Shown: in pieces, positions 10,854 to 44,058 of the stretch | Position numbering within the stretch: position 1 is the stretch's first letter | Layout: the number at the start of each line of letters is the position of its first letter | DNA from: Myxococcales bacterium UBA5297 | GTDB lineage: Bacteria > Myxococcota > Myxococcia > Myxococcales > UBA5297 | DNA: 44,962 nt | NCBI GenBank assembly: GCA_002408385.1 | Contig: DHSB01000022.1 | Location: 27,764 to 72,725 of the forward strand | Reading direction: 5' to 3' | Made by a program: the position numbers and the translations under genes | The notes under the pieces: model-generated | What the model was told of the DNA's origin: nothing | Database searches by the model: none | Seen by the model: only the letters and a program-made list of their open reading frames with translations

Positions 10854-11983
10854 CTCGAGCGAAGCGGCAGGTTCTGGTCCGGCGTCGGGAGGCTCCGGCG
10901 CCGCTGGCCGGGTCCAGCAACGTGCGTGACACGCAGTCCAAGCCTGGTCCCTCGACCCGGCGAATGCGCAAGAGCCTGCTCGCCTGGTTTGACGCCCACC
11001 AGCGCGACCTGCCCTGGCGCCGCCGGCGCGATCCGTATGCGGTCTGGCTCTCCGAGGTGATGCTCCAGCAGACGCAGGTGGCGACGGTCGTCCCCTACTT
11101 TGAGCGCTTCCTCGCGCGCTTCCCGGACGTACAGGCGCTCGCCGACGCCGAGCTCGCCGAGGTCCTCTCGCTCTGGCGCGGCCTCGGCTACTACTCGCGG
11201 GCCCGCAACCTCCATCGAGCCGCGCAGCTCATCGCCAAGCGAGCCTTTCCGAGCACGGCACAAGGGCTGCGCGAGCTGCCGGGCCTCGGGCGCTACACGG
11301 CCGCCGCGGTCGCCTCGTTCGCGTTCGGCGAAGCCGTCGCGGTGCTCGACGGCAACGTCTCGCGGGTGCTCGCCCGGCTCCGTGCCATCGAAGGCCCGCT
11401 CGGCTTGTCGGAGGCAAGGCTCTGGGCCGAGGCCGAAGCCCTGCTCGACCGTTCGCGGCCCGGCGCCTTCAACGAGGCGATGATGGAGCTGGGCGCGCTC
11501 GTCTGCGTCCCCGGCGAGCCGCGATGTGGCAAGTGCCCGCTCGAGAAGGACTGCGCGGCGAGGGCGAGCGGGCTCGAGCGCGCGATCCCGGCGCCCAAGC
11601 CCCGGCCCGAGCGCAAGCGACTGCGCATGGCGTGCGGCGTGGCGGTCACCCGGGGGCGCGTGCTCCTCGCGCGGCGCGAAGAGAAAGGCCTCTTCGGCGG
11701 GCTCTGGGAGCTGCCGAGCGTCGCGGTCGAAGGCGCTTCGCCTCGCGAGTCGCTCGCCGCCATCGGACTGCGCGCAACCGGCGACGAGCCGCTCGCGTCG
11801 GTGCGCCGCACCCTGACGCATCGAGAGCTGACGCTCGAGCTGTACCGGTGCCGGACGCCGAGGGGCGCGCTGGTGGGGTTCATCGAGCAGCGCTTCGTCG
11901 CGCGCTCGGAGCTGGCGCAGCTCGGCATCTCGACCGCGATGGCCAAGGGGCTCGCGCAGGTGGAGTCGCTGCTCGGCGGCTGA
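10850..11983 (+). CDS. mutY: A/G-specific adenine DNA glycosylase MutY
   Basis: MutY removes adenine mispaired with 8-oxoguanine in base-excision repair. Visible features are the catalytic region SEVMLQQTQV (Glu69), the helix-hairpin-helix LPGLGRYTAAAV (143-154), the catalytic Asp in VLDGNVSR (Asp167) and the [4Fe-4S] ligands Cys219, 226, 229 and 235, spaced C-x6-C-x2-C-x5-C. A NUDIX-like C-terminal domain for 8-oxoG recognition begins about residue 265 and ends near 370. The first 38 residues are not part of the fold. The ATG at 10850 overlaps the pfa3 stop (ATGA), while a second ATG at 10964 would give a more usual N-terminus (MRKSLLAWF). Coupling to pfa3 is therefore possible but not certain. 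The family assignment is firm. Confidence 0.93.
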   Translation: MTRAKRQVLVRRREAPAPLAGSSNVRDTQSKPGPSTRRMRKSLLAWFDAHQRDLPWRRRRDPYAVWLSEVMLQQTQVATVVPYFERFLARFPDVQALADAELAEVLSLWRGLGYYSRARNLHRAAQLIAKRAFPSTAQGLRELPGLGRYTAAAVASFAFGEAVAVLDGNVSRVLARLRAIEGPLGLSEARLWAEAEALLDRSRPGAFNEAMMELGALVCVPGEPRCGKCPLEKDCAARASGLERAIPAPKPRPERKRLRMACGVAVTRGRVLLARREEKGLFGGLWELPSVAVEGASPRESLAAIGLRATGDEPLASVRRTLTHRELTLELYRCRTPRGALVGFIEQRFVARSELAQLGISTAMAKGLAQVESLLGG

Positions 11984-23047: not shown

Positions 23048-24610
23048 TCAGGCCTTGGGGCTGCGGCCCTCGAGGATCTCCAGGAAGGGGTTGAAGTAGT
23101 GCTCGCCCTTGCCGAGCACGCCCTCGAGCCCCTTGCCACCGGTCTCGGTGCGGGCGATGTCGCCGAAGCGCGCTTTGCCGATGGCCGGCATCAGGCCGGT
23201 CTTCTCGACCTCCTCGAGCAGCTCCATCGCCTCGCCGAAGACCTTGCGCGCGCGGCCGGCGATGACCCCGTCCGGCTTGAGCACGAACTCGTCGGCGATG
23301 CCGTCGAAGGCCCGGTAGACGTAGCCGGCGCCCTTGAGCGCGACGTAGCGGTCCATCATCAGCGGGGTGTGCATCGCCTCGGTCATCATGCCGAGCAGGT
23401 GAATTCCCTGGCCGGTCCATTTGGCCACGATGTCGGCCATCAGGTCGTAGGCGTGGCTCCAGAAGATGTCGCCGCTCTTGTGTTTGGTCGGCGGCATGTA
23501 CTTGAGCGGGGCGTCCGGGAAGCAGCGGCGCACGAGCATCGCCTGGCCCAACTCGAGCAGGAAGGTCTGGGGCAGCGCCGGGTCGAGCTCATAGGCAAGA
23601 CCTATCCCGAGCTGCCAGTCCTTGAGCCCGGCGCGCTTGCCGAAGGCCTCGTTGATGAACTCGCTGGCGACCACCGTGTAGGCGGCATCGAAGGCGTCGG
23701 CGGTGGTGACGTAGTTGTCCTCGCCGGTGTTGATGATGATCCCGGTCAGGGCGCAGATGCGGCGCGAGAAGTACTGATCGATGAAGGTGCGCTGCATGTT
23801 GATGTCGCGGAAGAGGATTCCGTACATCGCGTCGTTGAGCAGCATGTCCAGCCGCTCCCAGGCCGCCGCGAAGGCGATCTCCGACATGCACAGACCCGAG
23901 GAGTAGTTGGTCAGGTGGATGTAGCGCCCGAGCCTCTTCGACTCCTCGTCGAGCGCCTCGCGCATGATCCGGAAATTCTCCTGCGTCGCGTAGGTGCCGC
24001 CGTAGCCCTCGGTCGTCGCGCCGTGGGGCACGTAGTCGAGCAGCGACTGGGCGGTCGAGCGGATGACCGCGATGATGTCGGCGCCGGCCTGGGCCGCGGC
24101 CTTGGCCTGCTCGACGTCGTCGAAGATGTTGCCGGTGGCGACGATGACGTAGCGCAAAGGAGCCTTGGCGGTGCCAAGCTCCTTCTTGAGCGCGTCGCGC
24201 TGCTCACAGCGGCGCAGCAGCTCGTCGACCGCCGCGCGCGTCTCCTTGCGCATCAGCTCGCGGATGGCCCCGTCCTCCTCGGCCGTGGGCGGGTCGAGCC
24301 TCTCGAGCGGCAGGGCGATGAGCTTCTCGACCGCGTCGAGGGGGCTGTTGGCACCCATGCGCAGGGCCCGGCCGAGCCACCAAGCCGCGCCGCGGTCGAG
24401 CACGCCGGCCGCGTGGAGCCTGTCGACGAGCGTGTTGACGAGCGGAACGCCCCGCGGCCCGGCACCCGACAGGCCATAAAGGCGCAGGACCGTCCGCTCG
24501 ATAGAGACCGTCGTGTGCTGGCTGATGAAGCCGAGCACCGGCTCGGTGATTCGAGAGGCGAGCTCTCGAGCCTGGGCGACTTGGGAATCTTCGACAAAGA
24601 GGTTGGCCAT
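23048..24610 (-). CDS. kamD: D-lysine / beta-lysine 5,6-aminomutase, alpha subunit
   Basis: The 520-residue protein has the TIM-barrel alpha subunit pattern: HTTVSIERTVLRLYG, GVPLVNTLVD, LRYVIVATGNIFDDVEQAKAA, GADIIAVIRSTAQSLLDYVP, GATTEGYGGTYATQENFR, LTNYSSGLCMSEIA and INTGEDNYVTTADAF. Its length equals that of characterised KamD proteins. The ATG at 24610 begins MANLFVEDSQ. The large open frame upstream of it is not conserved. With KamE it forms the alpha2beta2 B12/PLP enzyme of lysine fermentation. kdd, encoding the next enzyme of the pathway, is 0.9 kb away on the other strand. Lysine 2,3-aminomutase (kamA), kce and kal are not in the window. Confidence 0.94.
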   Translation of the reverse strand: MANLFVEDSQVAQARELASRITEPVLGFISQHTTVSIERTVLRLYGLSGAGPRGVPLVNTLVDRLHAAGVLDRGAAWWLGRALRMGANSPLDAVEKLIALPLERLDPPTAEEDGAIRELMRKETRAAVDELLRRCEQRDALKKELGTAKAPLRYVIVATGNIFDDVEQAKAAAQAGADIIAVIRSTAQSLLDYVPHGATTEGYGGTYATQENFRIMREALDEESKRLGRYIHLTNYSSGLCMSEIAFAAAWERLDMLLNDAMYGILFRDINMQRTFIDQYFSRRICALTGIIINTGEDNYVTTADAFDAAYTVVASEFINEAFGKRAGLKDWQLGIGLAYELDPALPQTFLLELGQAMLVRRCFPDAPLKYMPPTKHKSGDIFWSHAYDLMADIVAKWTGQGIHLLGMMTEAMHTPLMMDRYVALKGAGYVYRAFDGIADEFVLKPDGVIAGRARKVFGEAMELLEEVEKTGLMPAIGKARFGDIARTETGGKGLEGVLGKGEHYFNPFLEILEGRSPKA

Positions 24611-24795
24611 GGACTCCACCGAGAGCCTCGCCCCAGGGGTGCGGGGCGGGCCCTTCTCACAGATGCGGTCGGCCGCCTGTCTCCCCTTGCTCGCGGAGAG
24701 CGGTTGGCCAGCGGACATAAGCCGCCTGCTAGATAAGCCGTTCAACCCTCGTTGATCAAGGGGGCGAATGACGGCCGGCGGCCAGAAGAAGCCGC

Positions 24796-24826
24796 TTGCC
24801 ACGCGGCGAGGAGGCGAAGATAGAAT
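24796..24826 (+). promoter_or_regulatory. Candidate promoter of the receiver-domain gene
   Basis: TTGCCA (24796-24801, 5/6 match) and TAGAAT (24821-24826, 5/6 match) are separated by 19 bases, two more than ideal. Transcription would start about 25 bases before the ATG at 24858. Confidence 0.4.
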
Positions 24827-24857
24827 CCGAGGCACGGCGAGGGGCGTTGAGGTGCAG

Positions 24858-25220
24858 ATGCCGGCGAAGATCCTGGTTGTCGACGACGACAAGTTCCAGC
24901 TCATGTTCCTGAGCGACGTCCTGCAGGCGGCCGGCTTCGAGCCGATCGCGGTCTCCTCGGCCATCGACGCCCTGAAGATGGACCTCTCGCAGATCGCGCT
25001 GGTCCTCTCCGATGTGGAGATGCCGCGCATGGACGGGCGCTCGCTCGTCGAGGCCATCCGCACCATCAAGGGCAGCGAGGTCCCGTTCGTCTTCGTCACC
25101 GGTACGGCCGATCCTCGCTCGCTGCTCTCCGACGCAATCCAGTACCAGGCCGAATTCATCTCCAAGCCCGTCGCGCCCGAAGAGCTCATCGCGCTCGTCA
25201 AGCGGATGCTCGCGGGCTGA
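24858..25220 (+). CDS. Stand-alone response-regulator receiver protein
   Basis: The 120 residues are one CheY-like receiver domain with no output domain. Acidic residues at 9-11 (VVDDDK), the phospho-acceptor Asp52 in LVLSDVEMPRMDG, the Thr in FVTGTAD and Lys103 in FISKPVAPEE are all present. The ATG at 24858 has GAGG five bases upstream. It lies between the divergently placed kamD and the co-directional kdd, 330 bases before the latter. No histidine kinase is nearby, so its partner is unknown. A link with lysine metabolism is only positional. Confidence 0.9.
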   Translation: MPAKILVVDDDKFQLMFLSDVLQAAGFEPIAVSSAIDALKMDLSQIALVLSDVEMPRMDGRSLVEAIRTIKGSEVPFVFVTGTADPRSLLSDAIQYQAEFISKPVAPEELIALVKRMLAG

Positions 25221-25550
25221 AGAGGCGTCGAAGAGAGTTGGACCCCGTCAGCCCGAGCATTGGTCGAGGGCTCCTCGACGGGGCGCGGGCCCCTTGGGCT
25301 TCGCTCGCTGCGAGCGGGCGCCCGTGTCTTGGTCGCGGCGGACTTCGCTGTCGCCAGCCAGAGAGAGAGCGACACGAGCCCACGCAAAGCTGCGCGTCTT
25401 CCTTGCCGACGGCGCCTCGCGTGGGTGAGAGCCTCCGAACGCCTGCAGCAGGGCCCAACCGGAGCCTGCCCTGCTTGCCTCCCATTCGAGCGTTCGAGTA
25501 GCCTCCCGCCTTCCGTTTTTCGGAGGGACCACCCGACCAAGGAGAGTGCC
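25221..25550. other. Intergenic region upstream of kdd
   Basis: No gene is visible. The segment CCCGAGCATTGGTCGAGGG at about 25254 is similar to the REP-like cores in pfa3. A weak promoter TTGCCT-N18-TAGCCT can be drawn around 25477-25506, followed by a CCTTCCG/CGGAGGG hairpin close to the kdd ribosome-binding site. Confidence 0.4.
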
Positions 25551-26588
25551 ATGAAGAAGGGCGATCGCTACGGGCTTCACCGCGTCATCGAGCCGAAGGG
25601 CGTGCTCCCGCAGACCGCCGTCAAGGTCGACAACAACATGGAGATCTACGACAACGAGATCCTCTGTGACGTCGAGACCCTGAACGTCGACTCGGCGAGC
25701 TTCACTCAGATCGAGGAGCAGGCCGGTCACGACAAGGCGAAGATCGCCGAGATCATGCTCGGGATCGTCTCGGAGCGCGGCAAGCACCAAAACCCGGTCA
25801 CCGGCTCGGGCGGCATGTTCATCGGCCGCGTCCACAAGATTGGCCCCGCGCTCGAGGGCAAGGTCGACCTCAAGCCTGGCGATCGCATCGCGTCTCTGGT
25901 CTCGCTCTCCCTCACCCCGCTGCGCATCGACAAGGTCAAAGAGATCCGCCCGGACATCGACCAGGTCGACATCGACGGCCAGGCGATCCTCTTCGAGAGC
26001 GGCGTGTGGGCCAAGCTGCCTCAGGACATGAGCCCGACCCTCGCCCTGTCGGTGCTCGACGTCGCCGGTGCCGTGCCGCAGGTGGCGCGGCTGGTCAAGC
26101 CGGGCGACACCGTCCTCGTGATCGGCGCGGGCGGCAAGTCGGGCATGCTCTGCATGCACGAGGCTCGCAAGCGCGCCGGCGTCACCGGCACGGTCATCGG
26201 CAACGCCCACAGCGCCAAGAGCACCGAGCGCGCCAAGGAGCTCGGCCTCGCCGACCACGTCTTCTCGGCGGACGCGACCCAGCCGGTCGAGGTGCTGAAG
26301 AAGGTCGAGGAGCTCACCGGCGGCAAGCTGTGCGACGTCGTGATCAACTGCGCCAACATCCCGAACACGGAGATGGCCTCCATCCTCTCCTGCAAGGATC
26401 GCGGGGCGGTCTATTTCTTCTCCATGGCGGTCAGCTTCACCAAGGCGGCGCTGGGCGCCGAGGGCGTGGGCAAGGACATCGACATGTTCATCGGCAACGG
26501 CTACGCCCACCGGCACGCCGAGATCTCGCTCAACGTCATGCGCGAGAACCCCACGCTGAAAAAGGTGTTCGAGGAGCTCTACGCGTAG
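25551..26588 (+). CDS. kdd: L-erythro-3,5-diaminohexanoate dehydrogenase
   Basis: Kdd oxidatively deaminates 3,5-diaminohexanoate, the product of KamDE, to 5-amino-3-oxohexanoate with NAD(P)+. The 345-residue sequence has the family N-terminus (YGLHRVIEPKGVLPQTA), the segment GKHQNPVTGSGGMFIG, a medium-chain-dehydrogenase-like Rossmann fold with VIGAGGKSGMLC (about residue 190) and the end INCANIPNTEMAS and GNGYAHRHAE. AAGGAG lies six bases before the ATG. It is transcribed away from kamDE but belongs to the same pathway. A strong terminator follows, so it is probably monocistronic. Confidence 0.93.
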   Translation: MKKGDRYGLHRVIEPKGVLPQTAVKVDNNMEIYDNEILCDVETLNVDSASFTQIEEQAGHDKAKIAEIMLGIVSERGKHQNPVTGSGGMFIGRVHKIGPALEGKVDLKPGDRIASLVSLSLTPLRIDKVKEIRPDIDQVDIDGQAILFESGVWAKLPQDMSPTLALSVLDVAGAVPQVARLVKPGDTVLVIGAGGKSGMLCMHEARKRAGVTGTVIGNAHSAKSTERAKELGLADHVFSADATQPVEVLKKVEELTGGKLCDVVINCANIPNTEMASILSCKDRGAVYFFSMAVSFTKAALGAEGVGKDIDMFIGNGYAHRHAEISLNVMRENPTLKKVFEELYA

Positions 26589-33502: not shown

Positions 33503-33991
33503 TTAGAGGTAGCGCTCCAGAAACTTGCGGCTCCGGGCATCGAGCGCGCGCACGTGCGGGATGCGGAAGTGAAGCCCGTGCGAATCGGTGATCAGCGCGC
33601 CGTCGGCCCCCAGGCGGCGCACGTGGTCCTCGTTGGGAAGCTGAAAGCTCGTCTCGCCCCTATCGGTCTCGACCTGCCAGAGCGTGGGCTCGGGCCCGGA
33701 CGAGACCCGGGTGATCCGCCGGATCACCGGAACCAGCTCGCGGCGCGCGAGGTCCGCCTCGAGAAATGCGCGAGTCCCGGCCGCCAGGCTGTCGAGCGAC
33801 CCCAGGCTGCAGACCTCGTGGCCCGCCTCGTCGCAGAACGAGATGGCTCCCGAAGGATCGCTGAAAGGAAAACAGCGCACCGGCACGACCCCGACGTGCT
33901 CGAGGCCCTCCGCGGTGGTGAGGACGAGCCGGCCGAAGGCGTCGTGGCGAAGCGCGATCGCTGAGGCCACAGGTCGCGAGGGGGGGCTCAT
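33503..33991 (-). CDS. DUF1854 family protein associated with cyanophycin metabolism
   Basis: The 162-residue protein begins [20 protein letters not shown] and shows the DUF1854 pattern: RLVLTTAEGLEHVGVVPVRCFP, GHEVCSLGSLDSLAAGTRAF, ELVPVIRRITRVSS, WQVETDRGETSFQLPNEDHV, RRLGADGALITDSHGLHFRI and LDARSRKFLERYL. In many beta-proteobacteria such a gene accompanies an ABC transporter and two cyanophycin synthetases, exactly as here. Its role is unknown. The ATG at 33991 overlaps the ABC transporter stop (ATGA) and follows a strong AAGGAGG, so it is translationally coupled to that gene. Confidence 0.85.
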   Translation of the reverse strand: MSPPSRPVASAIALRHDAFGRLVLTTAEGLEHVGVVPVRCFPFSDPSGAISFCDEAGHEVCSLGSLDSLAAGTRAFLEADLARRELVPVIRRITRVSSGPEPTLWQVETDRGETSFQLPNEDHVRRLGADGALITDSHGLHFRIPHVRALDARSRKFLERYL

Positions 33992-36339
33992 GCGACCTCC
34001 TTGCGCAGGACGAGCGTTGCCGGCTTCTTGCCACAATCGCCCTCCTCTTCCCGGAGCTGAGCCCGGTAGAGGCCGGCGTAGATGCCCTCGGCCTCCATCA
34101 ACTGCTGATGGCTGCCCATTTCCGCTATTCGCCCGCGGTCGAGCACGACGAGCCGGTCCGCGTTGCGCAGCGTGCTCAGCCGGTGGGCGATGGCGACGGT
34201 GGTGCGCCCGCGGATCAGGTTGTCGAGCGCCTCCTGGATCTCGCGCTCGGTCTGGGTGTCGACCGAGGAGGTCGCCTCGTCGAGGATGAGGATGCGCGGG
34301 TCGATGAGCAGCGCGCGGGCGATGGAGACGCGCTGGCGCTCGCCGCCGGAGAGCGTCTGGCCGCGCTCGCCGACCACCGAGTCGTAGCCGTCGGGAAGTT
34401 GCAGGATGAACTCGTGGGCGCGGGCGGCGCGCGCCGCCGCCATGATCTCCTCGCGCGTCGCGTCCGGCCGGCCGTAGGCGATGTTCTCGGAGATGGTCCC
34501 GTAGAACAGGAAGGGCTCCTGCAGCACCATGCCGATGTTGCGCCGATAGGCGCCTAGCGGGAACGAGCGGATGTCGGTGCCGTCGACGCGGATCTCACCC
34601 TCGGTCGGGTCGTAGAAGCGGCACACCAGGTTGAGCAGGGTGCTCTTGCCGGCGCCGGTCGCGCCGACCAGGCCGATCATCTCCCCAGGCTCGACCTTCA
34701 GGCTCACCTCGTCGACGACCAGCCGGTTGCCGAAGCGAAAGCTCACCCCGCTCAGCTCTATCTGGCCGCGCAGCCGCCCGGGCTGCACCGGCCTGGCCGG
34801 CTCGGGGACGCTCGGCACGCGGTCGAGCACCTCGAAGATGCGCTGCGCGCTCGCCGCTGCCCGCTGCGTGCTGTTGGCCATCCGCGTCATCGACTCGAGC
34901 CGCGCGTAGAAGCGGCCGATGTAGGCGAGGAACGCGGTGAGGACGCCGACGGTGATCTGCTGGTCGAAGACGCGCCAGGCGCCGAAGGCCCAGGCGATGA
35001 TGAGCCCGAACTGGTTGACGAGCGCGACCATCGGCCAGAAGAAGGTCCAGAGCCGGTTGACCCGGTCGTTGACCTCGACGATGCGCGCATTCGCCGCCCG
35101 GAAGCGCTGCACCTCGCGCCGCTCCTGGGCAAAGGCCTTGACCACGCGGATGCCCGGGATGGTGTCGGCGAGCACGCTGGTCATCTCCGCCCAGGCGCGG
35201 CTGCCGCGCAAAAAGCCGCGGCTCAGACGCCGGCGCGTGCGGAAGGTGAGGAAGGCCACCAGCGGGAACGAGCAGAGCGTCACCAGCGCCAGCACCGGGT
35301 CCATGTAGAAGAGCATCGCCGCGACGCCGGCGATCATCACCAGGTCGGTGACGAAGTCCATCAGCGTGTCCGACAGGAAGTAGCAGATCCTGTCGGTGTC
35401 GCTGCTGATGCGGGAGACGAGATCGCCGGTGCGCTTCGCGCTGAAGAACTCGAGCGACAGCTTGTGCAGGTGCGCGTAGGTCGTGTTGCGCAGGTCCGCG
35501 CTGACGCGCTCGCTCAGGCGCGCGAGCACCCAGCCTTGTGCCCACCCCAGGGCCCAGGCGAGCAGGGCCGCTCCGAGCATCGCCGACAGGTACCAGGGCA
35601 CCCGCGAGAACGGCGCCGCTCCCTTCTCGCGGACCTGCTCGAGGCGCTCGTGGCGCTGTGCCTCGCCGACGCCGGTCGCCTCCCGGGCCTGCTGCACCTG
35701 GTTCTGGTAGGGCGCGAGGATCTCGTCGACGAGCGGCCAGGTGACATACGGCGGCACGAGCCCGGCGGCGGTCGTGCCTAGGGTGAGCGCGACGCCCAGG
35801 GCGAGCACCTTCAGGTGCGGGCGCGCGAACCGCAGCAGGCGCAGCAGCACGCCTAGGCGCGCCGGTGCTTCGGCTTCGGCGGCCTCCGGCGCCTCGTGTT
35901 GCGACCTGTTCCCCGCCGCCGCGGCCTCGCCGGCGCGCACCGCGGCAAAGGCCTCCGCGAGCGCCTTGGCCTCACCGGCCCGGGCCACCGTGTAGCGAAA
36001 GCAGGCCAGCCGCCCGGTCTCCGAGAAGGCCTCCAGCGAGCCGAGCCCTGCGCGATCGCGCGCCGAGACCGAGGCGACCGACTCGAGCGGCCAGCTCTCC
36101 AGCCGCGGCTCAGGGGCCTTGCGAAGAGCGAGCAGCCTGCGCTGCGTCAAGGCGACGAGACCTTCGCTGAACGAGAGCGCCTCATCGAGATCGAGCCGAA
36201 GGACCGCGAGCAGCCTCTCCCCGGGCTCGAGCGCGGCCTCGAGCGGCCCGCGCAGGCTCTCCGGGACGCGGCTGGGAGCATCGAAGGTGGCGATCAAGGA
36301 AGTCTGCTCCAGGCGGATGACCTGTTCTGTCGCGGGCAC
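33988..36339 (-). CDS. Cyanophycin-metabolism-associated ABC transporter (exporter type, fused permease-ATPase)
   Basis: The GTG at 36339 gives 783 residues. The first 160 residues are a soluble domain with beta-rich segments ([34 protein letters not shown]) resembling the PH-like domain of this subfamily. Six membrane helices of an ABC exporter follow (about 180-505) with a long loop after helix 1. The nucleotide-binding domain has Walker [11 protein letters not shown], signature [15 protein letters not shown], Walker [13 protein letters not shown] and the H-loop AIAHRLST. It probably works as a homodimer. The substrate is unknown, and the association with cyanophycin genes is conserved. It is divergent from cphA' across 197 bases and coupled to the DUF1854 gene. 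Confidence 0.88.
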
Positions 36340-36536
36340 TTGTCTACCGCCAAACACTGCCGCAGTATATTTCGCCGTTCGCCGTCGGCGTCCCGCGGCT
36401 TCACGCGGAACCTCCCGCGGCTCTGGAGCCTGCACAGCAAGCACTACTGCCCTCTCGCGAGCGGTCCGCTCGCCCGGAGCCCTGACGGTTCGACGGTGCA
36501 CCTCCTGCGCCTCCACTGCCGCCGTGGGCGCATCCT
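36340..36536. promoter_or_regulatory. Divergent promoter region of the cyanophycin locus
   Basis: On the minus strand TATACT (36369-36364) is placed correctly for a short leader to the ABC transporter GTG. On the plus strand the overlapping TATATT (36366-36371) could serve cphA' with a leader of about 160 bases. Neither has a strong -35 at the best distance (plus strand TTGTCT at 36340 is 20 bases away). The AT-rich island CAGTATATTT stands out in otherwise GC-rich DNA. Shared control of both arms is inference. Confidence 0.45.
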
Positions 36537-38522
36537 ATGCGCATCCTCGAAACCCTGACGTTGCGGGGGCCCAACATCTGGTCGCGCCGAACCGTGCTCG
36601 AGGCCTGGGTCGATCTCGAGGAACTGGCCGAGCGCCCCTCGGACTCTATCCCCGGCTTCGCCGATCGTTTGCTCGGCTGGCTGCCGAGCCTGGTCGAGCA
36701 CCGCTGCAGCGTCGGCGAGCGCGGCGGCTTCATCCAGCGGCTTCGCGACGGGACCTACCCGGCCCACATCCTCGAGCACGTCACCCTCGAGCTGCAGTGC
36801 TTGGCCGGCACCCCGGTCGGCTTCGGCAAGGCGCGCGAGACGAGCCGCCCGGGTCTCTACAAGGTCGCGGTGCGCTACCGGGAGGAGCTGGTCGCCCGCG
36901 AGGCGCTGCGCTCAGCACTCGCGCTCGTACTCGCGGCCGTGCGTGCCGAGCCCTTCGACGTCGAAGCCCTGCTGCTGCGGCTTCGGGCCCTCGCCGAGCG
37001 CTGCCGGCTCGACCCGGCAACCAAAGCGCTCGTCGCCGCGGCCGAGACGCGCGGCATCCCGACCCGGCGGCTCGGCACCGGCAGTCTGGTGCTGCTCGGA
37101 CACGGTGCCCGGCAACGGCGCGTCTGCGCGGCCGGGACCGACCGCACTGGCGCCATCGGCGAATCGATCGTCCGGGACGCAGAGCTCGCCCGCAGCTTCC
37201 TTGGGAGGGTTGGCATTCCCGTCCCCGAGGCCCGGCTGGTCACGCACGCTTCGGACGCCTGGGCGGCTGCCTGCGAGATCGGCCTACCGGCCTCCATCCG
37301 ACCTGCCGACGGTGCCGCCAAAGACCACGACTGCCCGCTGCAGACCCGGGACGAGGTCGAAGCCGCGTTCCGCGCCGCGGCGAGCCACGGCAGCGCCGTC
37401 GTCGAGCGCTGGCTCCCCGGCAAGCGCCACCGCCTCCTCGTCATCGACGACAGGCTCGTCGCCGCCGCGCCCCTCGAGCCCGGCACCGACCTCACCAGCG
37501 CCCTCGATCCGAGCCTCAAGGCTCACGCCCTCCTCGCTGCGCGCGTCGTCGGCCTGGACGCGGCGGCGATCGACATCGCCGCGCAGAGCCTCTCGCGGCC
37601 GCTCGAGGAGCAGGGCGGAGCCCTCGTCGCCGTCAGCGCCAGCCTCGACCTCGAGCCGCTGGCGGGCCCGTCGGCGCAGACGCCCCCCGTCGCCAAGGGC
37701 GTCGCCGAGACCATCGTCGAGGAGCTCTTCGGCCCCGGCGAAGACGGCCGCATCCCCGTCGTCAGCGTCACCGGCACCCGCGGCAAGACGAGGGTCGCGC
37801 GGCTGGTCGCGCACCTTCTGCGCTCGACAGGCCGTGTCGTCGGCCTCGCCTGCAGCGAGGGCGCCTTCGCCGGCGATCGCCGGATAGCAGCGGGCGACTG
37901 CGCGCGGGCGGAACCGGCGCGCGCGCTGCTCCTCAACCCGAGCGTCGAGGCCGCCGTCTTCGAGTCGGGCGCCGAGAGCATTCTGCGCGAGGGGCTCGGG
38001 TTCGACCGCTGCCAGGTGGCCATCGTCACCAACCTCGGCGAGCCCGACCACCTCGGAACCTGCTTCATCGACAGCGCCGAGAAGATGTTCTCGGTCAAGC
38101 GCTGCGGGGTCGACGTGGTGCTGCCCTCGGGCCTCGCCGTCCTCAAGGCCGACGACCCGCTCGTCGCCGAGATGGCCGAGCTGAGCGCGGGAGCGGTCAC
38201 CTTCTTCGCCGTCGATGGCGAGCACCCGGTGCTCTGCCGGCATCGCGAGCAGGGAAAGCGAGCGGCCTTCTTGCGCGCCGGCCGCCTCATCCTCGCCGAG
38301 GGCCCGGCCGAGAACGACCTCGGCCCGCTCGAGGCTCTCGGCCTGGCGCCTCAGGCTCGCGCCTTCGAAATCGAGAACGCCCTCGCCGCGGCCGCGGCCG
38401 TCTGGTGGCTGCGCGTTCCCCTTGACCTCATCCGCGAAGGACTCGCGTCCTTCCAGCACGACACCACGCCACGCGAAGCCGGGCGCTCTGGCACTGCGAC
38501 TTCGCCTCGAGGCGCAGCATGA
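36537..38522 (+). CDS. cphA': Truncated cyanophycin synthetase paralogue CphA'
   Basis: The 661 residues align with CphA over the N-terminal, ATP-grasp and central Mur-ligase parts. The N-domain is intact and has His77-x-x-Glu80-His81 (HILEHVTLELQ), the motif position linked in some CphA1 enzymes to a hydrolytic site that makes primers. The ATP-grasp domain lacks about 75 residues between LLVIDDRLVAAA and DPSLKAHA, the VVVKPLDGNHGRG motif is changed to ASIRPADGAAKDH, and the metal-binding EVNAGPG is AVSASLD, so it should be inactive. The Mur-ligase P-loop is GTRGKT rather than GNNGKT, and about 160 C-terminal residues are missing. Both ends join neighbours cleanly and its stop overlaps cphA (ATGA), so this is an evolved form and not a recent break. 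Likely a partner of CphA. Confidence 0.85.
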   Translation: MRILETLTLRGPNIWSRRTVLEAWVDLEELAERPSDSIPGFADRLLGWLPSLVEHRCSVGERGGFIQRLRDGTYPAHILEHVTLELQCLAGTPVGFGKARETSRPGLYKVAVRYREELVAREALRSALALVLAAVRAEPFDVEALLLRLRALAERCRLDPATKALVAAAETRGIPTRRLGTGSLVLLGHGARQRRVCAAGTDRTGAIGESIVRDAELARSFLGRVGIPVPEARLVTHASDAWAAACEIGLPASIRPADGAAKDHDCPLQTRDEVEAAFRAAASHGSAVVERWLPGKRHRLLVIDDRLVAAAPLEPGTDLTSALDPSLKAHALLAARVVGLDAAAIDIAAQSLSRPLEEQGGALVAVSASLDLEPLAGPSAQTPPVAKGVAETIVEELFGPGEDGRIPVVSVTGTRGKTRVARLVAHLLRSTGRVVGLACSEGAFAGDRRIAAGDCARAEPARALLLNPSVEAAVFESGAESILREGLGFDRCQVAIVTNLGEPDHLGTCFIDSAEKMFSVKRCGVDVVLPSGLAVLKADDPLVAEMAELSAGAVTFFAVDGEHPVLCRHREQGKRAAFLRAGRLILAEGPAENDLGPLEALGLAPQARAFEIENALAAAAAVWWLRVPLDLIREGLASFQHDTTPREAGRSGTATSPRGAA

Positions 38523-41146
38523 ATTCGCAACCGTCATCCCGCTCGCACCAGCAGCCGCTCGCGCCCCAGTCCGTGCGAGCGCTGCGCGGACCAAACGTCT
38601 GGACCCGCTGTACGGCGATCGAAGTGCTCATCGAGCTGCAGGCGCGGCACGCGCAGTTGACGTCCGAACAAGGGCGCGCCATCTGCGAGCGCTTCCCGGC
38701 GCTCCACGCGGTCGACCTCGGGCCGACCCTGGCCCACGCCCTCGGGCGCATCAGCCTCACGCTCCAGGCGCAGGCCGGGTGCGCCGTCGCCTTCAGCCGC
38801 ACCGTGGCGATCGCCCCGCTCAGCTTCAAGGTCGTCGTCGAATACGTCGAGGAGGAGGTCGGCCGACGCGCCCTTCAGCTCGGCCAGGGGCTCGTCGAAG
38901 CTGCGCTCGACGACCGCCCGTTCGACACCGCCGCGGCCCTCCATTCGCTGCGCACCCTGGACGAGCGGGTGCGCCTCGGCCCGAGCACGGCCTCCATCGC
39001 CCGCGCGGCCGAGCGGCGCGCAATCCCCGTGCGCCGCCTCACCGACGGCAACCTCCTGCAGCTCGGCTGGGGCTGCCGTCAACGGCGCGTCTGGACCGCC
39101 GAGACCGACCGCACCAGCGCGGTCGCCGAGCTGGTCGCCAAGGACAAGGAGCTCACCAAGACGCTGCTGCGCGCCGTCGGCGTCCCGGTGCCCGAGGGCC
39201 GCGTCGCCAGCGACGCCGAAGACGCGTGGAGGGCGGCCCGCGAGCTGGGCGTTCCGGTCGTCGTCAAGCCGCTCGACGGCAACCACGGCCGCGGCGTCGC
39301 CGTCGGCCTGACCACGCGCGAGGGGGTGGCGACCGCCTTCCAGAGCGCGCGCCGCGAAGGCGAGATGGTGCTCGTCGAGCGGTTCGCCCCGGGCTTCGAC
39401 CATCGGCTCCTCGTCATCGGCGGCAAGCTCGTCGCCGCGGCCCGGCGCGAGCCGCCCCGAGTCATCGGCGACGGCGCGCGCACCCTCTACGCGCTCATCG
39501 AGGCCGAGAACCAGGACCCGCGCCGCGGCGAGGACCACGCGACCTCGTTGAGCAGGATCCCGCTCGACGAGACCACCCGGGCGGTGCTCGCCGAGCAGGG
39601 CTATGCGCCCGAATCAGTCCCCGCGGCGGGCGCGGTGGTCGCGCTGCGGCGCAACGGCAACCTGAGCACCGGCGGCAGCGCCGAGGACGTGACCGACCGG
39701 GTCCACCCGAGCCTCGCCGCGCACGCCGTCGAGGCTGCGCGCGCGGTCGGGCTGGACATCGCCGGCATCGACTTCGTCTGCGGCGACGTGAGCGTGCCCC
39801 TGGAGGAGCAGAGCGGGGTTGTCGTCGAGGTGAACGCGGGCCCCGGGTTCCGCATGCACCTCGCGCCGTCGTCGGGCCAGCCGCGCCCGGTGGGCGAGGC
39901 GGTCGTCGACAGCCTCTTCGCCGAAGGCGACGACGCCCGCATCCCGGTCGTCGCCATCTCCGGCAACAACGGCAAGACCACCACCACCCGGCTCGTCGCG
40001 CACATCTTCCAGACGATGGGCAAGCGGGTCGGGATGACCTGCACCGACGGCCTGTACATCGAGGGCCGGCGCATCGACGACGGCGACTGCGCCGGCCCGA
40101 AGAGCGCGCGCACGGTGCTCTTCCACCCGCTCGTCGAGGTCGCGGTGCTCGAGACCGCGCGGGGAGGCCTGTTGCGCGAGGGGCTCGGGTTCGACCGCTG
40201 CGAGGTCGCGGTGGTCACCAACGTCGGGCGCGGCGACCACCTTGGCCAGAGCGGCATCGTCACCGCCGAGCAGCTCGCCGAGGTGAAGCGGACCGTGGTC
40301 GAGAACGTGGCGCCCTCGGGCACCGCGGTGCTCAACGCGGCCGACCCGCTGACCGCCGCGATGGCGCCCTTCTGCCCGGGCTCGGTCACCTTCTTCGCGC
40401 GCGAGCCCTCGGACCCGACCCTCGAGGCGCATCGGGCCCGGGGCGGGCGCGCGGTGTTCGTGGAGGAGCAGGCCATCGTCGTCGCGGAGGGGCCGCAGAA
40501 GACACGGATCATCGAGCTGGGGAACGTGCCGATGACGCTGGGCGGGCTCATCGCCTTCCAGATCGAGAACGCGCTCGCGGCCGTCGGCGCCGCGTGGGCC
40601 GCCGGCATCCCTTGGGAGGCGATCCGGACCGCGCTCTCGACCTTCGTGACCGATCCGCGCAGCGTCCCCGGGCGCTTCAACGTGCTCGGGCACCGCGGCG
40701 CGACGGTGATCGCCGACTACGGCCACAATCCGGATGCCCTCCAGGCCATCGCCGACGCCATCGAGAAGCTGCCCGCCCGGCGGCGCGTCGTCGTCCTGAG
40801 CTGCGCGGGCGACCGACGCGACGAGGACATCCTCCACGTCTCGGAGATAGCCGGGAACGCCTTCGACGAGGTCATCCTCTACGAGGACGCGTGCAACCGC
40901 GGCCGAGCCGACGGCGAGGTGATCGGGCTGATGCGCCACGGGCTCGGCAAAGGGCGGCGGGGCGCGGCGACGAGCGAGTACTACAACGAGCTGGCGGCGA
41001 TGCAGGCGGGCCTGAACACCTTGCAGCCGGGCGATCTGCTGGTCGCGCTCGTCGATCAGATCGAGGCCTCCCTGGCGTTCCTAGAAAAGACCGTCTCCGA
41101 GAGGAAGCCGTCCGTGCCCCGGCCCCCTTCGGCCGCCGCTGCCTGA
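38519..41146 (+). CDS. cphA: Cyanophycin synthetase CphA
   Basis: The 875-residue enzyme polymerises Asp and Arg into cyanophycin using ATP. The ATP-grasp domain adds Asp to the chain end: VVVKPLDGNHGRG (about residue 247), LVERFAPGFDHRLLVI, RRNGNLSTGGSAEDVTD, GIDFVCGD and VVEVNAGPGFRMHL. The Mur-ligase-like domain adds Arg to the side chain: P-loop ISGNNGKTTTTRL (about 480), VLETARGGLLREGLGFDRC, FQIENALAA, and the C-terminal lobe PGRFN with DYGHNPDA. All key motifs are present. In the N-domain the HxxEH site of primer-making enzymes is replaced by His73-Ala-Leu-Gly-Arg77. The ATG overlaps the cphA' stop. No cyanophycinase is in the window. Confidence 0.95.
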   Translation: MNSQPSSRSHQQPLAPQSVRALRGPNVWTRCTAIEVLIELQARHAQLTSEQGRAICERFPALHAVDLGPTLAHALGRISLTLQAQAGCAVAFSRTVAIAPLSFKVVVEYVEEEVGRRALQLGQGLVEAALDDRPFDTAAALHSLRTLDERVRLGPSTASIARAAERRAIPVRRLTDGNLLQLGWGCRQRRVWTAETDRTSAVAELVAKDKELTKTLLRAVGVPVPEGRVASDAEDAWRAARELGVPVVVKPLDGNHGRGVAVGLTTREGVATAFQSARREGEMVLVERFAPGFDHRLLVIGGKLVAAARREPPRVIGDGARTLYALIEAENQDPRRGEDHATSLSRIPLDETTRAVLAEQGYAPESVPAAGAVVALRRNGNLSTGGSAEDVTDRVHPSLAAHAVEAARAVGLDIAGIDFVCGDVSVPLEEQSGVVVEVNAGPGFRMHLAPSSGQPRPVGEAVVDSLFAEGDDARIPVVAISGNNGKTTTTRLVAHIFQTMGKRVGMTCTDGLYIEGRRIDDGDCAGPKSARTVLFHPLVEVAVLETARGGLLREGLGFDRCEVAVVTNVGRGDHLGQSGIVTAEQLAEVKRTVVENVAPSGTAVLNAADPLTAAMAPFCPGSVTFFAREPSDPTLEAHRARGGRAVFVEEQAIVVAEGPQKTRIIELGNVPMTLGGLIAFQIENALAAVGAAWAAGIPWEAIRTALSTFVTDPRSVPGRFNVLGHRGATVIADYGHNPDALQAIADAIEKLPARRRVVVLSCAGDRRDEDILHVSEIAGNAFDEVILYEDACNRGRADGEVIGLMRHGLGKGRRGAATSEYYNELAAMQAGLNTLQPGDLLVALVDQIEASLAFLEKTVSERKPSVPRPPSAAAA

Positions 41147-41155
41147 GCCCGCCTC

Positions 41156-41644
41156 ATGCGAGAAGACCCCACCCGCGCGCGCCTGGGCGAGGACGCGCCC
41201 CGCGTAGAGCTCTTCGCCGACGGCGCCTGCCTCGGAAATCCCGGACCAGGAGGCTGGGGCTTTGTCCTTCGGATGGGCAAGCACGAGCGCGAGGGCTCGG
41301 GCGCCGAGGCCGGCACGACGAACAACCGGATGGAGATCACCGCGGTCCTGCGCGGGCTCGAGGCGCTCAAGCGCCCGTGTCGCGTCGGTCTGGTCAGCGA
41401 CAGCCAGTACGTCGTCAAGGCGATCGACGAGTGGCTCGCGGGATGGAAGGCGAAGGGCTGGCGGCGCAACAACGGCCCGGACGGCCGGTTGCTCAACGCC
41501 GAGCTGTGGAAGCGGCTCGACGCCCTGCTGCAGGTCCACGACGTGACGGCGACCTGGGTTCGCGGGCACAACGGGCACCCGGAGAACGAGCGGTGCGACC
41601 TGCTCGCGCGCAGCGCTGCGGAGCGGTTGAAGGTTGGAGGATGA
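41156..41644 (+). CDS. rnhA: Ribonuclease HI
   Basis: RNase HI cuts the RNA strand of RNA/DNA hybrids. The four catalytic acids are visible: Asp22 in [17 protein letters not shown], Glu in [13 protein letters not shown], Asp in [11 protein letters not shown], and Asp in [13 protein letters not shown], after the His of WVRGHNGH. Length (162) is normal. The first 15 residues precede the fold. The gene begins nine bases after cphA and may be read from the same transcript. A functional link with cyanophycin is not expected. Confidence 0.95.
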
Positions 41645-41895: not shown

Positions 41896-42055
41896 CTCCA
41901 TCCTTTGGCTCGCGCTCGGTTCTGGTACATGCCTGCCAGCATTCGCCGGGCTGGGGCCTCCGCCGCTCCGTTCCCCTTGCGAAGAATAATGGAAGGAAAT
42001 CGACGCGAGCCCCGTCTTCGGGCTGACGACGCGAGCATCAACCGTGGAGCGAAGA

Positions 42056-43321
42056 ATGCGACGAGGAATCGTGGTGGGCGTGGCCGCCGTGGCGGCAGTC
42101 GGTATCGGCGCCGGGGTCGTGCTCGGGCTCCAGCCAGGCAAGAAGGAGCCCGTCCAGTTCGAGACCGCGGCGGTCAAGCGCGGCCGGCTCGCCGCCTGGG
42201 TAACGGCCACCGGGACCGTCTCCCCGCGCGTCACCGTGCAGGTCGGCAGCCAGGTCTCCGGCCGCATCCTCGAGATGCTCGCCGACTTCAACTCCCGGGT
42301 GACCAAGGGCCAGCTCATCGCCCGAATCGACCCTCAGCTCTTCGCGACCGAGGTGGCGCAGGCCCGCGCGAACCTCGTCTCGGCCCAGGCCGGAGTCAAA
42401 GGCGCCGAGGCGCAGCTCGCCGACTCGAAGCGCCAGTTCGAGCGCTCCTCCTCGCTCGCCGAGCGCAAGCTCGTCGCGCAGGCCGAAGCCGATTCCGCAC
42501 TCGCCGCGATGCAGTCGGCCGAGGCCAACCTCGCCTCCAACAAGGCCAAGCTCGAGCAGGCGCGCGCTGCCCTCGAGCGCGCCCAAACCAACCTCGCCTA
42601 CACCAAGATCGTCTCGCCCATCGACGGCGTGGTCATCTCCCGCGACGTCGACGTCGGCCAGACCGTCGCCGCGTCGCTGCAGGCCCCCACCCTGTTCACC
42701 ATCGCCGAGGACCTGCGGAAGATGGAGGTGCACACCAGCGTCGCCGAGTCCGACGTCGGCCGCCTCGCGCCCGAAATGAAGGTCGAGTTCACCGTCGACG
42801 CCTTCCCCGGCGAGCGCTTCGGCGGCGTGGTCAAGGAGGTGCGCTACTCGCCGACCACCGTCCAGAACGTGGTCACCTACGACGCGGTCGTCTCGGTCGA
42901 GAACCCCGAGCTCAAGCTGCGCCCCGGCATGACCGCCGACGTCAGCTTCCTCATCGAAGAGCAGGCCGACGTGCTGATGGTGCCCAACGCGGCGCTGCGC
43001 TTCCGGCCACCGGAGGAGTTCCTGGCCCAAGCTCGAGCACAGCTCGAACGAGGCGGTGCGGGCGCAGCTTCGGCCGGCGATGCCCCGGCCGAGCGCCGCA
43101 CCGAGCGCGCCGCGGGCGGGGGTGGCAAACGCCCGCTCTGGAGGCTCGGCCCCGACGGCAAGCCGCAGGCGGTGCGCGTGGACCTCGGCATCAGCGACGG
43201 GCGCAACACCGCGGTCAGCGGTCCCGGGCTCAAGGAAGGCGACCTGATGATCGTCGGCACGCTCTCCGGCGATGAGCCGGCACCCGCCGCCCGTCCGATG
43301 CAGCGCGGCCGCTTCCTGTGA
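42056..43321 (+). CDS. Periplasmic adaptor (membrane fusion) protein, MacA/HlyD type
   Basis: The protein links an inner-membrane MacB-type ABC transporter to an outer-membrane channel. It starts with one membrane helix (MRRGIVVGVAAVAAVGIGAG), then a barrel-sandwich half (VTVQVGSQVSGRILEMLADF), a coiled-coil hairpin (about 95-175, rich in Ala/Gln/Glu), the second sandwich half (YTKIVSPIDGVVISRDVDVGQTV), a beta-barrel and a membrane-proximal domain. An insert near 325-355 is low-complexity Ala/Gly/Arg. The ATG at 42056 has GGAG seven bases upstream, and the GTG at 42044 overlaps that site. The next gene follows nine bases after the stop. Confidence 0.9.
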   Translation: MRRGIVVGVAAVAAVGIGAGVVLGLQPGKKEPVQFETAAVKRGRLAAWVTATGTVSPRVTVQVGSQVSGRILEMLADFNSRVTKGQLIARIDPQLFATEVAQARANLVSAQAGVKGAEAQLADSKRQFERSSSLAERKLVAQAEADSALAAMQSAEANLASNKAKLEQARAALERAQTNLAYTKIVSPIDGVVISRDVDVGQTVAASLQAPTLFTIAEDLRKMEVHTSVAESDVGRLAPEMKVEFTVDAFPGERFGGVVKEVRYSPTTVQNVVTYDAVVSVENPELKLRPGMTADVSFLIEEQADVLMVPNAALRFRPPEEFLAQARAQLERGGAGAASAGDAPAERRTERAAGGGGKRPLWRLGPDGKPQAVRVDLGISDGRNTAVSGPGLKEGDLMIVGTLSGDEPAPAARPMQRGRFL

Positions 43322-43329
43322 GGCACGAG

Positions 43330-44058
43330 ATGGCGCTCATCGAAATCCGCGACATGCGCAAGACGTACGACTCGGGCGAGGTGCAGGTGCACGCGCTGCG
43401 CGGCGTCTCCCTGGACATCGAGGTCGGGGAGTCGGTGGCCATCATGGGCGCCTCGGGCTCCGGCAAGTCGACGCTGATGAACATCCTCGGCTGTCTCGAC
43501 CGGCCGACCGGCGGCAGCTACCTGCTCGCCGGCGAAGAGGTGGCCACGCTCAGCCGGGTCCGACTCGCCGAAGTGCGCAACCGCACTCTGGGCTTTGTCT
43601 TCCAGAGCTTCAACCTGCTCGCGCGCACCAGCGCCCTCGAGAACGTCGAGCTGCCGCTGATGTACGCCGGGGTTCCTCGCAAGGAGCGCCATCGGCGCGC
43701 CACCGCCGCCCTCGAGCGCGTCGGGCTTGGCGAGCGGGTCCACCACCATCCGAATCAGCTCTCGGGCGGTCAGCAGCAGCGGGTCGCCATCGCCCGCGCC
43801 CTGGTCGGCGAACCGCGGCTCATCCTCGCCGACGAGCCCACCGGCAACCTCGACTCGCGCACCAGCATCGAGGTGATAGCGCTCTTCCAGGACCTGGTCG
43901 CCTCGGGGATGACCGTGGTGCTCGTCACCCACGAGCCGGACATCGCCGAGCACGCCGGGCGCATCGTCGAGATCCGCGACGGGCTGGTGCGCCGCGACGA
44001 GCGGCGCGAGCCCAAGCCGGCCCGGGTCCGGGCGGACGAGGAAGGAGCGCAGGCGTGA
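43330..44058 (+). CDS. ABC transporter ATPase, MacB/LolD type
   Basis: The 242-residue ATPase has Walker A GASGSGKSTLMN, Q-loop FVFQSFNLL, signature LSGGQQQRVAIARAL, Walker B LILADEPTGNLDS and H-loop VTHEPD, with the PTGNLD sequence typical of MacB/LolD ATPases. The ATG at 43330 has GAGG six bases upstream. A GTG at 43318 overlaps the previous stop but has no better site. The basic C-terminal tail (DERREPKPARVRADEEG) is unconserved. Its stop overlaps the permease start. Here ATPase and permease are separate genes, unlike the fused E. coli MacB. Confidence 0.93.
   Translation: MALIEIRDMRKTYDSGEVQVHALRGVSLDIEVGESVAIMGASGSGKSTLMNILGCLDRPTGGSYLLAGEEVATLSRVRLAEVRNRTLGFVFQSFNLLARTSALENVELPLMYAGVPRKERHRRATAALERVGLGERVHHHPNQLSGGQQQRVAIARALVGEPRLILADEPTGNLDSRTSIEVIALFQDLVASGMTVVLVTHEPDIAEHAGRIVEIRDGLVRRDERREPKPARVRADEEGAQA

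Follow-up and report, generated by a model that had tools for sequence, protein, structure and literature searches.

Cyanophycin synthetases related to the gene pair

Among the nearest known relatives of the genes considered here is the cyanophycin synthetase CphA1 of Synechocystis sp. UTEX2470 (SuCphA1; PDB 7lg5, 7txv), which carries on one chain a primer-making site in its N-terminal (N) domain, an ATP-grasp (G) site and a Mur-ligase (M) site. The Cx19HxxEH motif of the N site occurs in 83% of CphA1 and is therefore not strictly defining (PMC9262961). It has been lost from the primer-dependent CphA1 of Tatumella morbirosei (TmCphA1; 7lgn) and from that of Acinetobacter baylyi (7lgm), which keep the G and M sites and for which the available text of PMC9262961 describes no partner. 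SuCphA1 with dead G and M sites, or its N domain alone, freed TmCphA1 from its need for primer when supplied in trans, and a heterodimer of N-G+M+ and N+G-M- SuCphA1 chains was active (PMC9262961). The paralogue CphA2 (PDB 7ta5, 8fxh) has an active dipeptide-joining G site, no N motif (PMC9262961), and has lost the M-domain P-loop and lid (PMC9427784). The activated-sludge 'Group 1' cluster, in which two tandem cphA copies accompany an ABC transporter and cphB is absent, is already known, and both copies are evenly expressed in Accumulibacter (PMC10687191). Here we analyzed a pair of this kind, cphA' and cphA, in a window of 44,962 nucleotides (the whole stretch of DNA under study) from Myxococcales bacterium UBA5297 (GCA_002408385.1, 7.65 Mb, 95.55% complete; contig DHSB01000022.1, positions 27,764 to 72,725). 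It is probable (roughly 0.66) that the two genes constitute a natural split enzyme, derived by duplication and complementary loss of active sites, in which CphA' makes primers for CphA in trans.

The pair shares its domain order and fold with SuCphA1, CphA' having the seven N-site residues and CphA the catalytic residues of G and M; unlike in SuCphA1, the three sites are spread over two chains, neither of which has all three. CphA resembles the T. morbirosei and A. baylyi enzymes but has an N-intact partner encoded next door. The division of sites is identical to that of the engineered SuCphA1 chains, which are laboratory constructs, whereas the natural N+ partner also lacks the G-omega region and the M lid. 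CphA' is like CphA2 in its overall fold and as a degenerate paralogue without an M lid, yet the window protein is its reverse in N motif and G site. The gene arrangement is that of the 'Group 1' cluster; active-site complementarity goes unmentioned in the available text of PMC10687191, where Tetrasphaera genomes have two cphA in series and a neighboring cphB. We found no statement of such complementarity in the literature searched, whose coverage stopped short of subscription papers, including older cphA surveys.

The features of the pair are as follows.

36537 to 38522, + strand: cphA' (661 amino acids), N domain with its metal site intact, remnant of ATP-grasp and lidless Mur-ligase core
36699 to 36707, + strand: CphA' H55 and C57 (SuCphA1 H57 and the third metal ligand C59, by alignment)
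36765 to 36779, + strand: CphA' HILEH, residues 77-81 (SuCphA1 H79, E82, H83, by alignment)
37017 to 37739, + strand: degenerate remnant of the CphA' ATP-grasp (G) domain (residues about 161-401), with deletion of the G P-loop and G-omega
37740 to 38471, + strand: Mur-ligase core of CphA' (residues about 402-645), lacking the C-terminal lid
38519 to 38522, + strand: ATGA overlap of cphA' stop and cphA start
38519 to 41146, + strand: cphA (875 amino acids), with the catalytic residues of ATP-grasp and Mur ligase but no longer the N site
38735 to 38749, + strand: CphA HALGR, residues 73-77, in the HxxEH columns
39962 to 39979, + strand: CphA GNNGKT, residues about 482-487, M-domain P-loop

Complementary active sites in CphA' and CphA

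Alignment to CphA1 structures placed the HILEH of CphA', which a sequence-only reading of the window had taken for the N-site motif, on the N-domain metal site. All seven N-site residues of SuCphA1 are present (H55, C57, R68, H77, E80, H81 and E85), and the stretch from C57 to H81 aligns without gaps to C59-H83, with C57 matching C59 and H77, E80 and H81 matching H79, E82 and H83. The Cys-His-His metal triad, the general base Glu and the supporting His and Arg of an endo-cyanophycinase site are all in place, and the N domain matches PF18921 at 127 bits (cut-off 27). A chance occurrence of HILEH was rejected given the gap-free alignment and the conserved supporting residues.

The rest of CphA' is eroded. 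Its ATP-grasp domain shows K220A, K261R, R323L, E450A, N452S and R458E (SuCphA1 numbering), H267 and N394 are deleted, and one of 75 G-omega columns remains, with R309 and D431 still present. The Mur-ligase lid, of which 12 of 138 columns are left and for which there was no Mur_ligase_C match, is also lost, an addition to the sequence-only account, and the P-loop lysine K499, E558, D585 and H586 of the M domain remain. CphA' falls below the curated CphA1 cut-offs (TIGR02068, 559.7 versus 850 bits; NF010623, 720.7 versus 877) and lacks the G catalytic residues and M lid required of CphA1. It departs from CphA2 in having the N motif; of the two M-domain losses of CphA2, that of the lid is seen in CphA' but that of the P-loop is not (GTRGKT). 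An AlphaFold2 model (predicted local distance difference test score 90.1) has nearly the whole protein folded, the M core is 91% identical to P0002 despite the absent lid, and relatives at 98% and 85% identity share the architecture, the N core being best conserved in the latter. The CphA' of the window is a clean case: by its residues, no catalytic site other than the N site is still fully intact.

CphA is its counterpart. HALGR occupies the HxxEH columns, as the sequence-only reading had it, so that H79 is kept and E82 is replaced by G, H83 by R, C59 by L and E87 by T, with R70 deleted; the Cx19HxxEH motif is not matched. The catalytic residues of both other sites are kept, in agreement with the motifs first reported: K220, K261, H267, R309, R323, N394, D431, E450, N452 and R458 in the ATP-grasp domain and K499, T500, T522, E558, D585 and H586 in the Mur-ligase domain. 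Two of the positions checked deviate, E215 being Leu and T496 Asn, and neither belongs to the ATP/Mg set. CphA exceeds the curated CphA1 cut-offs (TIGR02068, 954.5 versus 850 bits; NF010623, 1151.5 versus 877). The column of His267, which is His in the window CphA, holds Gln in 96% of 161 CphA with lost N and intact G site (N-minus G+) and in 27% of 62 N-intact CphA.

Surveys of paired and solo cphA genes

A first scan, from which the best 80 of 143 loci were taken, used patterns that contained HILEH and was therefore useless for testing retention of the motif; whole genomes were then searched with the G and M part of CphA only (N-blind). Matches were found in 24 of 195 Myxococcota, 97 of 250 Burkholderiales and 34 of 244 Planctomycetota genomes, of which 23, 94 and 34 were read, 151 in total. 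These comprised 95 with a complementary pair, 48 with one intact CphA, one with another kind of split and seven that were fragmentary (G273, G294 and G404 of Burkholderiales at contig ends; G024, G148, G168 and G186 of Myxococcota with fragments or lone paralogues). A script assigned complementary pairs to 5 Myxococcota, 84 Burkholderiales and 5 Planctomycetota; G193, whose CphA lies in pieces across two contigs, was counted as the 95th. Solo intact CphA were found in 13, 7 and 28 genomes, respectively, although degenerate extra copies could have been missed in them at the survey cut-offs (1e-40 or 1e-60). Across the 151 genomes, not one CphA'/CphA pair has a full N site in both proteins, and not one has lost it from both; in this sense the surveys show the anticorrelated motif retention for which the sequence-only reading had proposed to look. 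Three of 163 N-minus G+ open reading frames (ORFs) do carry H79, E82 and H83, the letters whose retention in both proteins it had named as counting against it, and HxxEH is thus present twice in those pairs, yet the Cys ligand C59 is found in none of the 163.

Two class counts, the six ATP/Mg residues kept in 100% of the G* class and HCRHEHE in 165 of 166 members of the N+ class, were dropped as circular because the classes were defined by some of the same letters. A recount without that condition sorted the 238 N-blind ORFs in which the N domain and M core were covered by R323 and R458 alone (in the pool of 340 ORFs a few genes were fetched twice, e.g., L057/L165). In the polymerase type (both Arg; n = 143) the six ATP/Mg residues are kept in all 143 and the M site in 142, and the N site is kept in 48 and lost in 95. 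Among 95 ORFs of the CphA' type, 93 read HCRHEHE at the seven N-site positions and 14 have an intact M site. As many as 80 of the 93 N-intact CphA' have a broken Mur site, so the N site outlasts the M site. The two CphA'-type ORFs without an N site (L237 and L238) are both from G699, where another protein carries it. This planctomycete has an alternative split (L237:1474-6045), a 724-amino-acid protein with intact N and G sites and no M domain beside a 799-amino-acid protein with only the M domain intact.

The supposedly dead ATP-grasp domain of CphA' is real in the window protein and a few others, but it is not the general state. K220, K261, R309, D431, E450 and N452 are kept in 93 of the 95 CphA'-type ORFs and H267 in 91; the main differences are at R323, with G in 91, and R458, with L in 84. 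As R323 lies near the carboxylates both of the chain end and of the incoming aspartate, and recognition of aspartate requires R458 (PMC9427784), the acceptor site has probably changed in most CphA' lineages. The ATP-grasp site of most CphA' elsewhere thus reads as altered, not dead, and in the window's lineage not even an altered site is left.

Beyond these groups, 37 of 397 Pseudomonadota genomes had matches (30 loci returned), and five CphA without sign of a pair were all N-intact, with seven further single CphA left unread; cphA was found in only 2 of 193 Verrucomicrobiota genomes. Among eight plasmid CphA-like genes, six were N-intact and one (L256) was a different protein, and no cyanobacterial CphA2 was present among the 40 of 125 plasmid matches listed. 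An M-domain paralogue of ~550-770 amino acids (stop to stop) with intact Mur motifs lies after many of the solo intact CphA genes (L035, L037, L039-L044, L046, L226, L235, L236, L239-L242, L247, L248, L287-L290 and L293-L305; L250 and L252, annotated as Mur ligase family protein); two examples of the paralogue match TIGR02068 far under its cut-off.

Gene linkage

The 4-base overlap of cphA' and cphA is there (ATGA), but the stoichiometric complex inferred from it is not supported. Of 82 same-strand Burkholderiales pairs, 61 have a cphA frame (stop to stop) that reaches or passes the cphA' stop and 21 have one that opens 4-196 bases after it, and the overlap was accordingly rejected as proof of a complex. 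The genes lie kilobases apart in Verrucomicrobia and are unlinked on the same chromosome in G196, so linkage is not required, and neither it nor the overlap is general among pairs.

Evolution of the pair

A FastTree phylogeny of 298 sequences (SuCphA1 columns 162-724, midpoint root) grouped most CphA' proteins, including that of the window, in one clade of 117 (Shimodaira-Hasegawa (SH) support 0.978), with weak placements on the long branches of G-degenerate copies (L061/L074 beside L142/L158; window CphA' group, SH 0.735). A losses-only count gave 12 losses of the N site, seven of them in polymerases with intact G and M sites: the main CphA clade of 99, a Verrucomicrobia clade of 19, an Isosphaeraceae pair, an Acidobacteria gene, L049, the L224/L225 copies and L159. 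Genomes of each of these groups also encode an N-intact cph protein, which held wherever examined, truncated contigs aside. For the Verrucomicrobia, Isosphaeraceae, Acidobacteria, L049 and L159 genomes only the N loss of the polymerase is informative, since these were sampled via the HILEH scan (G196 was found again N-blind). The G site was lost five times, and the N site was kept in four of these clades, all but the window having been found via the HILEH scan.

The same two sister copies are resolved in opposite ways at L049 (N+G-M+ and N-G+M+) and L237 (N-G-M+ and N+G+M-); the N-minus copy of L049 reads H79-Q82-H83, and SuCphA1 is inactivated by the same E82Q change. A three-way split of the sites seems to exist in G196, G200 and G239, which have an N-intact protein lacking G, a CphA and a third gene whose G site is changed. 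Both patterns are as expected from duplication, degeneration and complementation. Third cph paralogues of ~580-760 amino acids that resemble CphA2, having lost the N site and M domain and having a changed G site (R323 to G or C, or R458 changed), were seen at L131, L134, L165:827-2557, L238, L142, L158 and L163.

Distribution of cyanophycinase

The canonical cyanophycinase (peptidase S51, TIGR02069) had no match in the window's genome, although at 95.55% completeness a gene could have been missed. Strong matches (E<1e-60) were present in 2 of 71 split versus 47 of 51 solo genomes (p 1.7e-26 by Fisher's test, which takes no account of phylogeny, although the association is partly phylogenetic), that is, in 0 of 5 split versus 13 of 13 solo Myxococcota and 2 of 51 split versus 6 of 6 solo Burkholderiales. 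Both split genomes with a strong match have an extra CphA pair beside it. At the curated cut-off, 12 of the 71 split genomes have some match; the solo genomes without a strong one are G571, G714, G848 and G507. Nine split genomes were reached via the HILEH scan (G195, G200, G205, G210, G215-G217, G236 and G239), and the solo set includes G086 (not fetched as a region), G088 (broken frame) and G848 (ending at a contig end). The comparison excluded G224, G228, G240, G1156 and seven genomes whose N sites were unread.

Function of CphA'

The sequences themselves show where the motifs fall by alignment, that the losses are complementary, and that the pattern recurs and is conserved; from this we infer that CphA' would hydrolyze cyanophycin, supply primers in vivo and may be in contact with CphA. 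After duplication of an ancestral gene and complementary losses, CphA (N-minus, G+, M+) would polymerize Asp and Arg but be unable to cut cyanophycin into primers. CphA', with its zinc-type Cx19HxxEH endo-cyanophycinase site, would act in trans to cut rare long chains into short pieces, which CphA would extend. In the window's lineage, this site would be the one part of the catalytic machinery of CphA' still fully intact, carried by a folded scaffold of CphA1 type. Since published constructs complement each other in trans and the natural pair shows the same division, primer supply in trans follows most directly. Leftover chains of canonical degradation are unlikely primers because the window's genome had no cyanophycinase match. 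The split enzyme proposed by the sequence-only reading stands as regards complementary losses, found here and in the N-blind surveys, and workability (PMC9262961), with primer supply as its conjectural part.

Several observations weigh against this reading. The SuCphA1 heterodimer was somewhat less active without primer than the cis form (PMC9262961), and the conservation of the M core in CphA' is unexplained by N-site function alone. Solitary N-minus CphA with no known partner exist in A. baylyi, in T. morbirosei (PMC9262961) and on one Chryseobacterium plasmid, which was seen alone without its chromosome. Outside the N-blind sets, G228 has an intact CphA with an N-intact CphA', G240 a pair and an additional intact CphA, G222 an extra CphA' whose N site is broken, and G224 an intact CphA with an N-minus copy (G1156 has one N-minus CphA and one N-intact CphA interrupted by a contig end). 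The complementary Burkholderiales G299 and G493 have two extra convergent N-minus CphA (the L224/L225 copies) beside a strong cyanophycinase match. Outside the window's close kin, the kept N site of G-degenerate CphA' proves little because most were found through HILEH; some of the tree evidence, too, rests on loci that the motif had selected, which lowers our confidence slightly.

For most CphA' outside the window, one may tentatively suppose that the altered ATP-grasp site acts on another acceptor, e.g., the beta-Asp-Arg dipeptide as in CphA2, making CphA' a second synthetase that also cuts. This is compatible with the split enzyme and fits the kept ATP/Mg residues, the changes at R323 and R458, which lie at the chain end and aspartate, and the many CphA' without an M lid. 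The window protein, having lost its G site, falls outside this idea; moreover, CphA2 has no N motif. More speculative is a general account in which CphA' is the unrecognized cyanophycin cutter of many bacteria with cphA and without cyanophycinase, its freed N site serving in trans as primer maker and endo-depolymerase, and in which CphA1 has been repeatedly broken up by duplication, each of the three sites surviving at least once per genome. The skewed cyanophycinase counts mean that CphA' may also serve degradation, which would resolve the puzzle raised in PMC10206079, and may also be the missing cyanophycin-cutting enzyme. That it is mainly a depolymerase, an endo-cyanophycinase mobilizing stored polymer where a canonical cyanophycinase is lacking, with primers as a by-product, is unlikely. 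The missing TIGR02069 match, the skewed counts and the 2.8% cyanophycinase rate in beta-proteobacterial CphA1 genomes, called unanticipated and suggestive of unknown isozymes (PMC10206079), speak for it. The N site of SuCphA1, however, is slow, taking days on whole polymer, and yields mainly dipeptide tetramers, not single dipeptides (PMC9262961); four solo genomes also have no strong match, the absence partly follows lineage, the curated cut-off is exceeded in a dozen split genomes, and Tetrasphaera combines serial cphA with cphB.

Quite improbable is a catalytically silent CphA' that serves as a scaffold or regulatory subunit, its N domain binding polymer without cutting it. The conserved M core and the predicted fold of nearly the entire protein would suit such a role, but metal ligands and a general base are unnecessary for binding, and the N-site letters persist in 93 of 95 CphA'-type ORFs, most of them with a broken Mur site. 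We rejected as close to nil the idea that cphA' is a decaying pseudogene with a relic motif, which the degraded G and M domains might suggest: its frame is open, its relatives conserve the architecture, and N-intact CphA' is kept in 95 N-blind genomes.

Genomic context

The neighbors of the pair include two cyanophycin metabolism-associated genes.

33503 to 34036, - strand: cyanophycin metabolism-associated DUF1854 protein (NF052234; 178.6 bits, cut-off 150)
33988 to 36516, - strand: cyanophycin metabolism-associated ABC transporter (NF052233; 1062.5 bits, cut-off 880), divergent neighbor
41156 to 41644: RNase HI, downstream of cphA

Elsewhere in the window, two large ORFs (4-10853) have ketoacyl synthase, FabA-like, KR, carrier and acyltransferase domains of a polyketide or polyunsaturated fatty acid synthase, followed by a MutY-like protein (HhH-GPD plus NUDIX_4; 10850-11983), a D-lysine 5,6-aminomutase alpha subunit domain (755 bits; 23048-25552, - strand) and an HlyD-type fusion protein with an ABC ATPase (42044-44058).

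Implications

With the split, an engineered trans-complementation becomes a natural and widespread arrangement, with the same division of labor in several bacterial phyla. It can account for many CphA1 enzymes without the N motif, and predicts that such cphA genes would need co-expression of cphA' for good polymer yield. CphA' is, furthermore, a testable candidate for the cyanophycin cutting that beta-proteobacteria seem to lack (PMC10206079).
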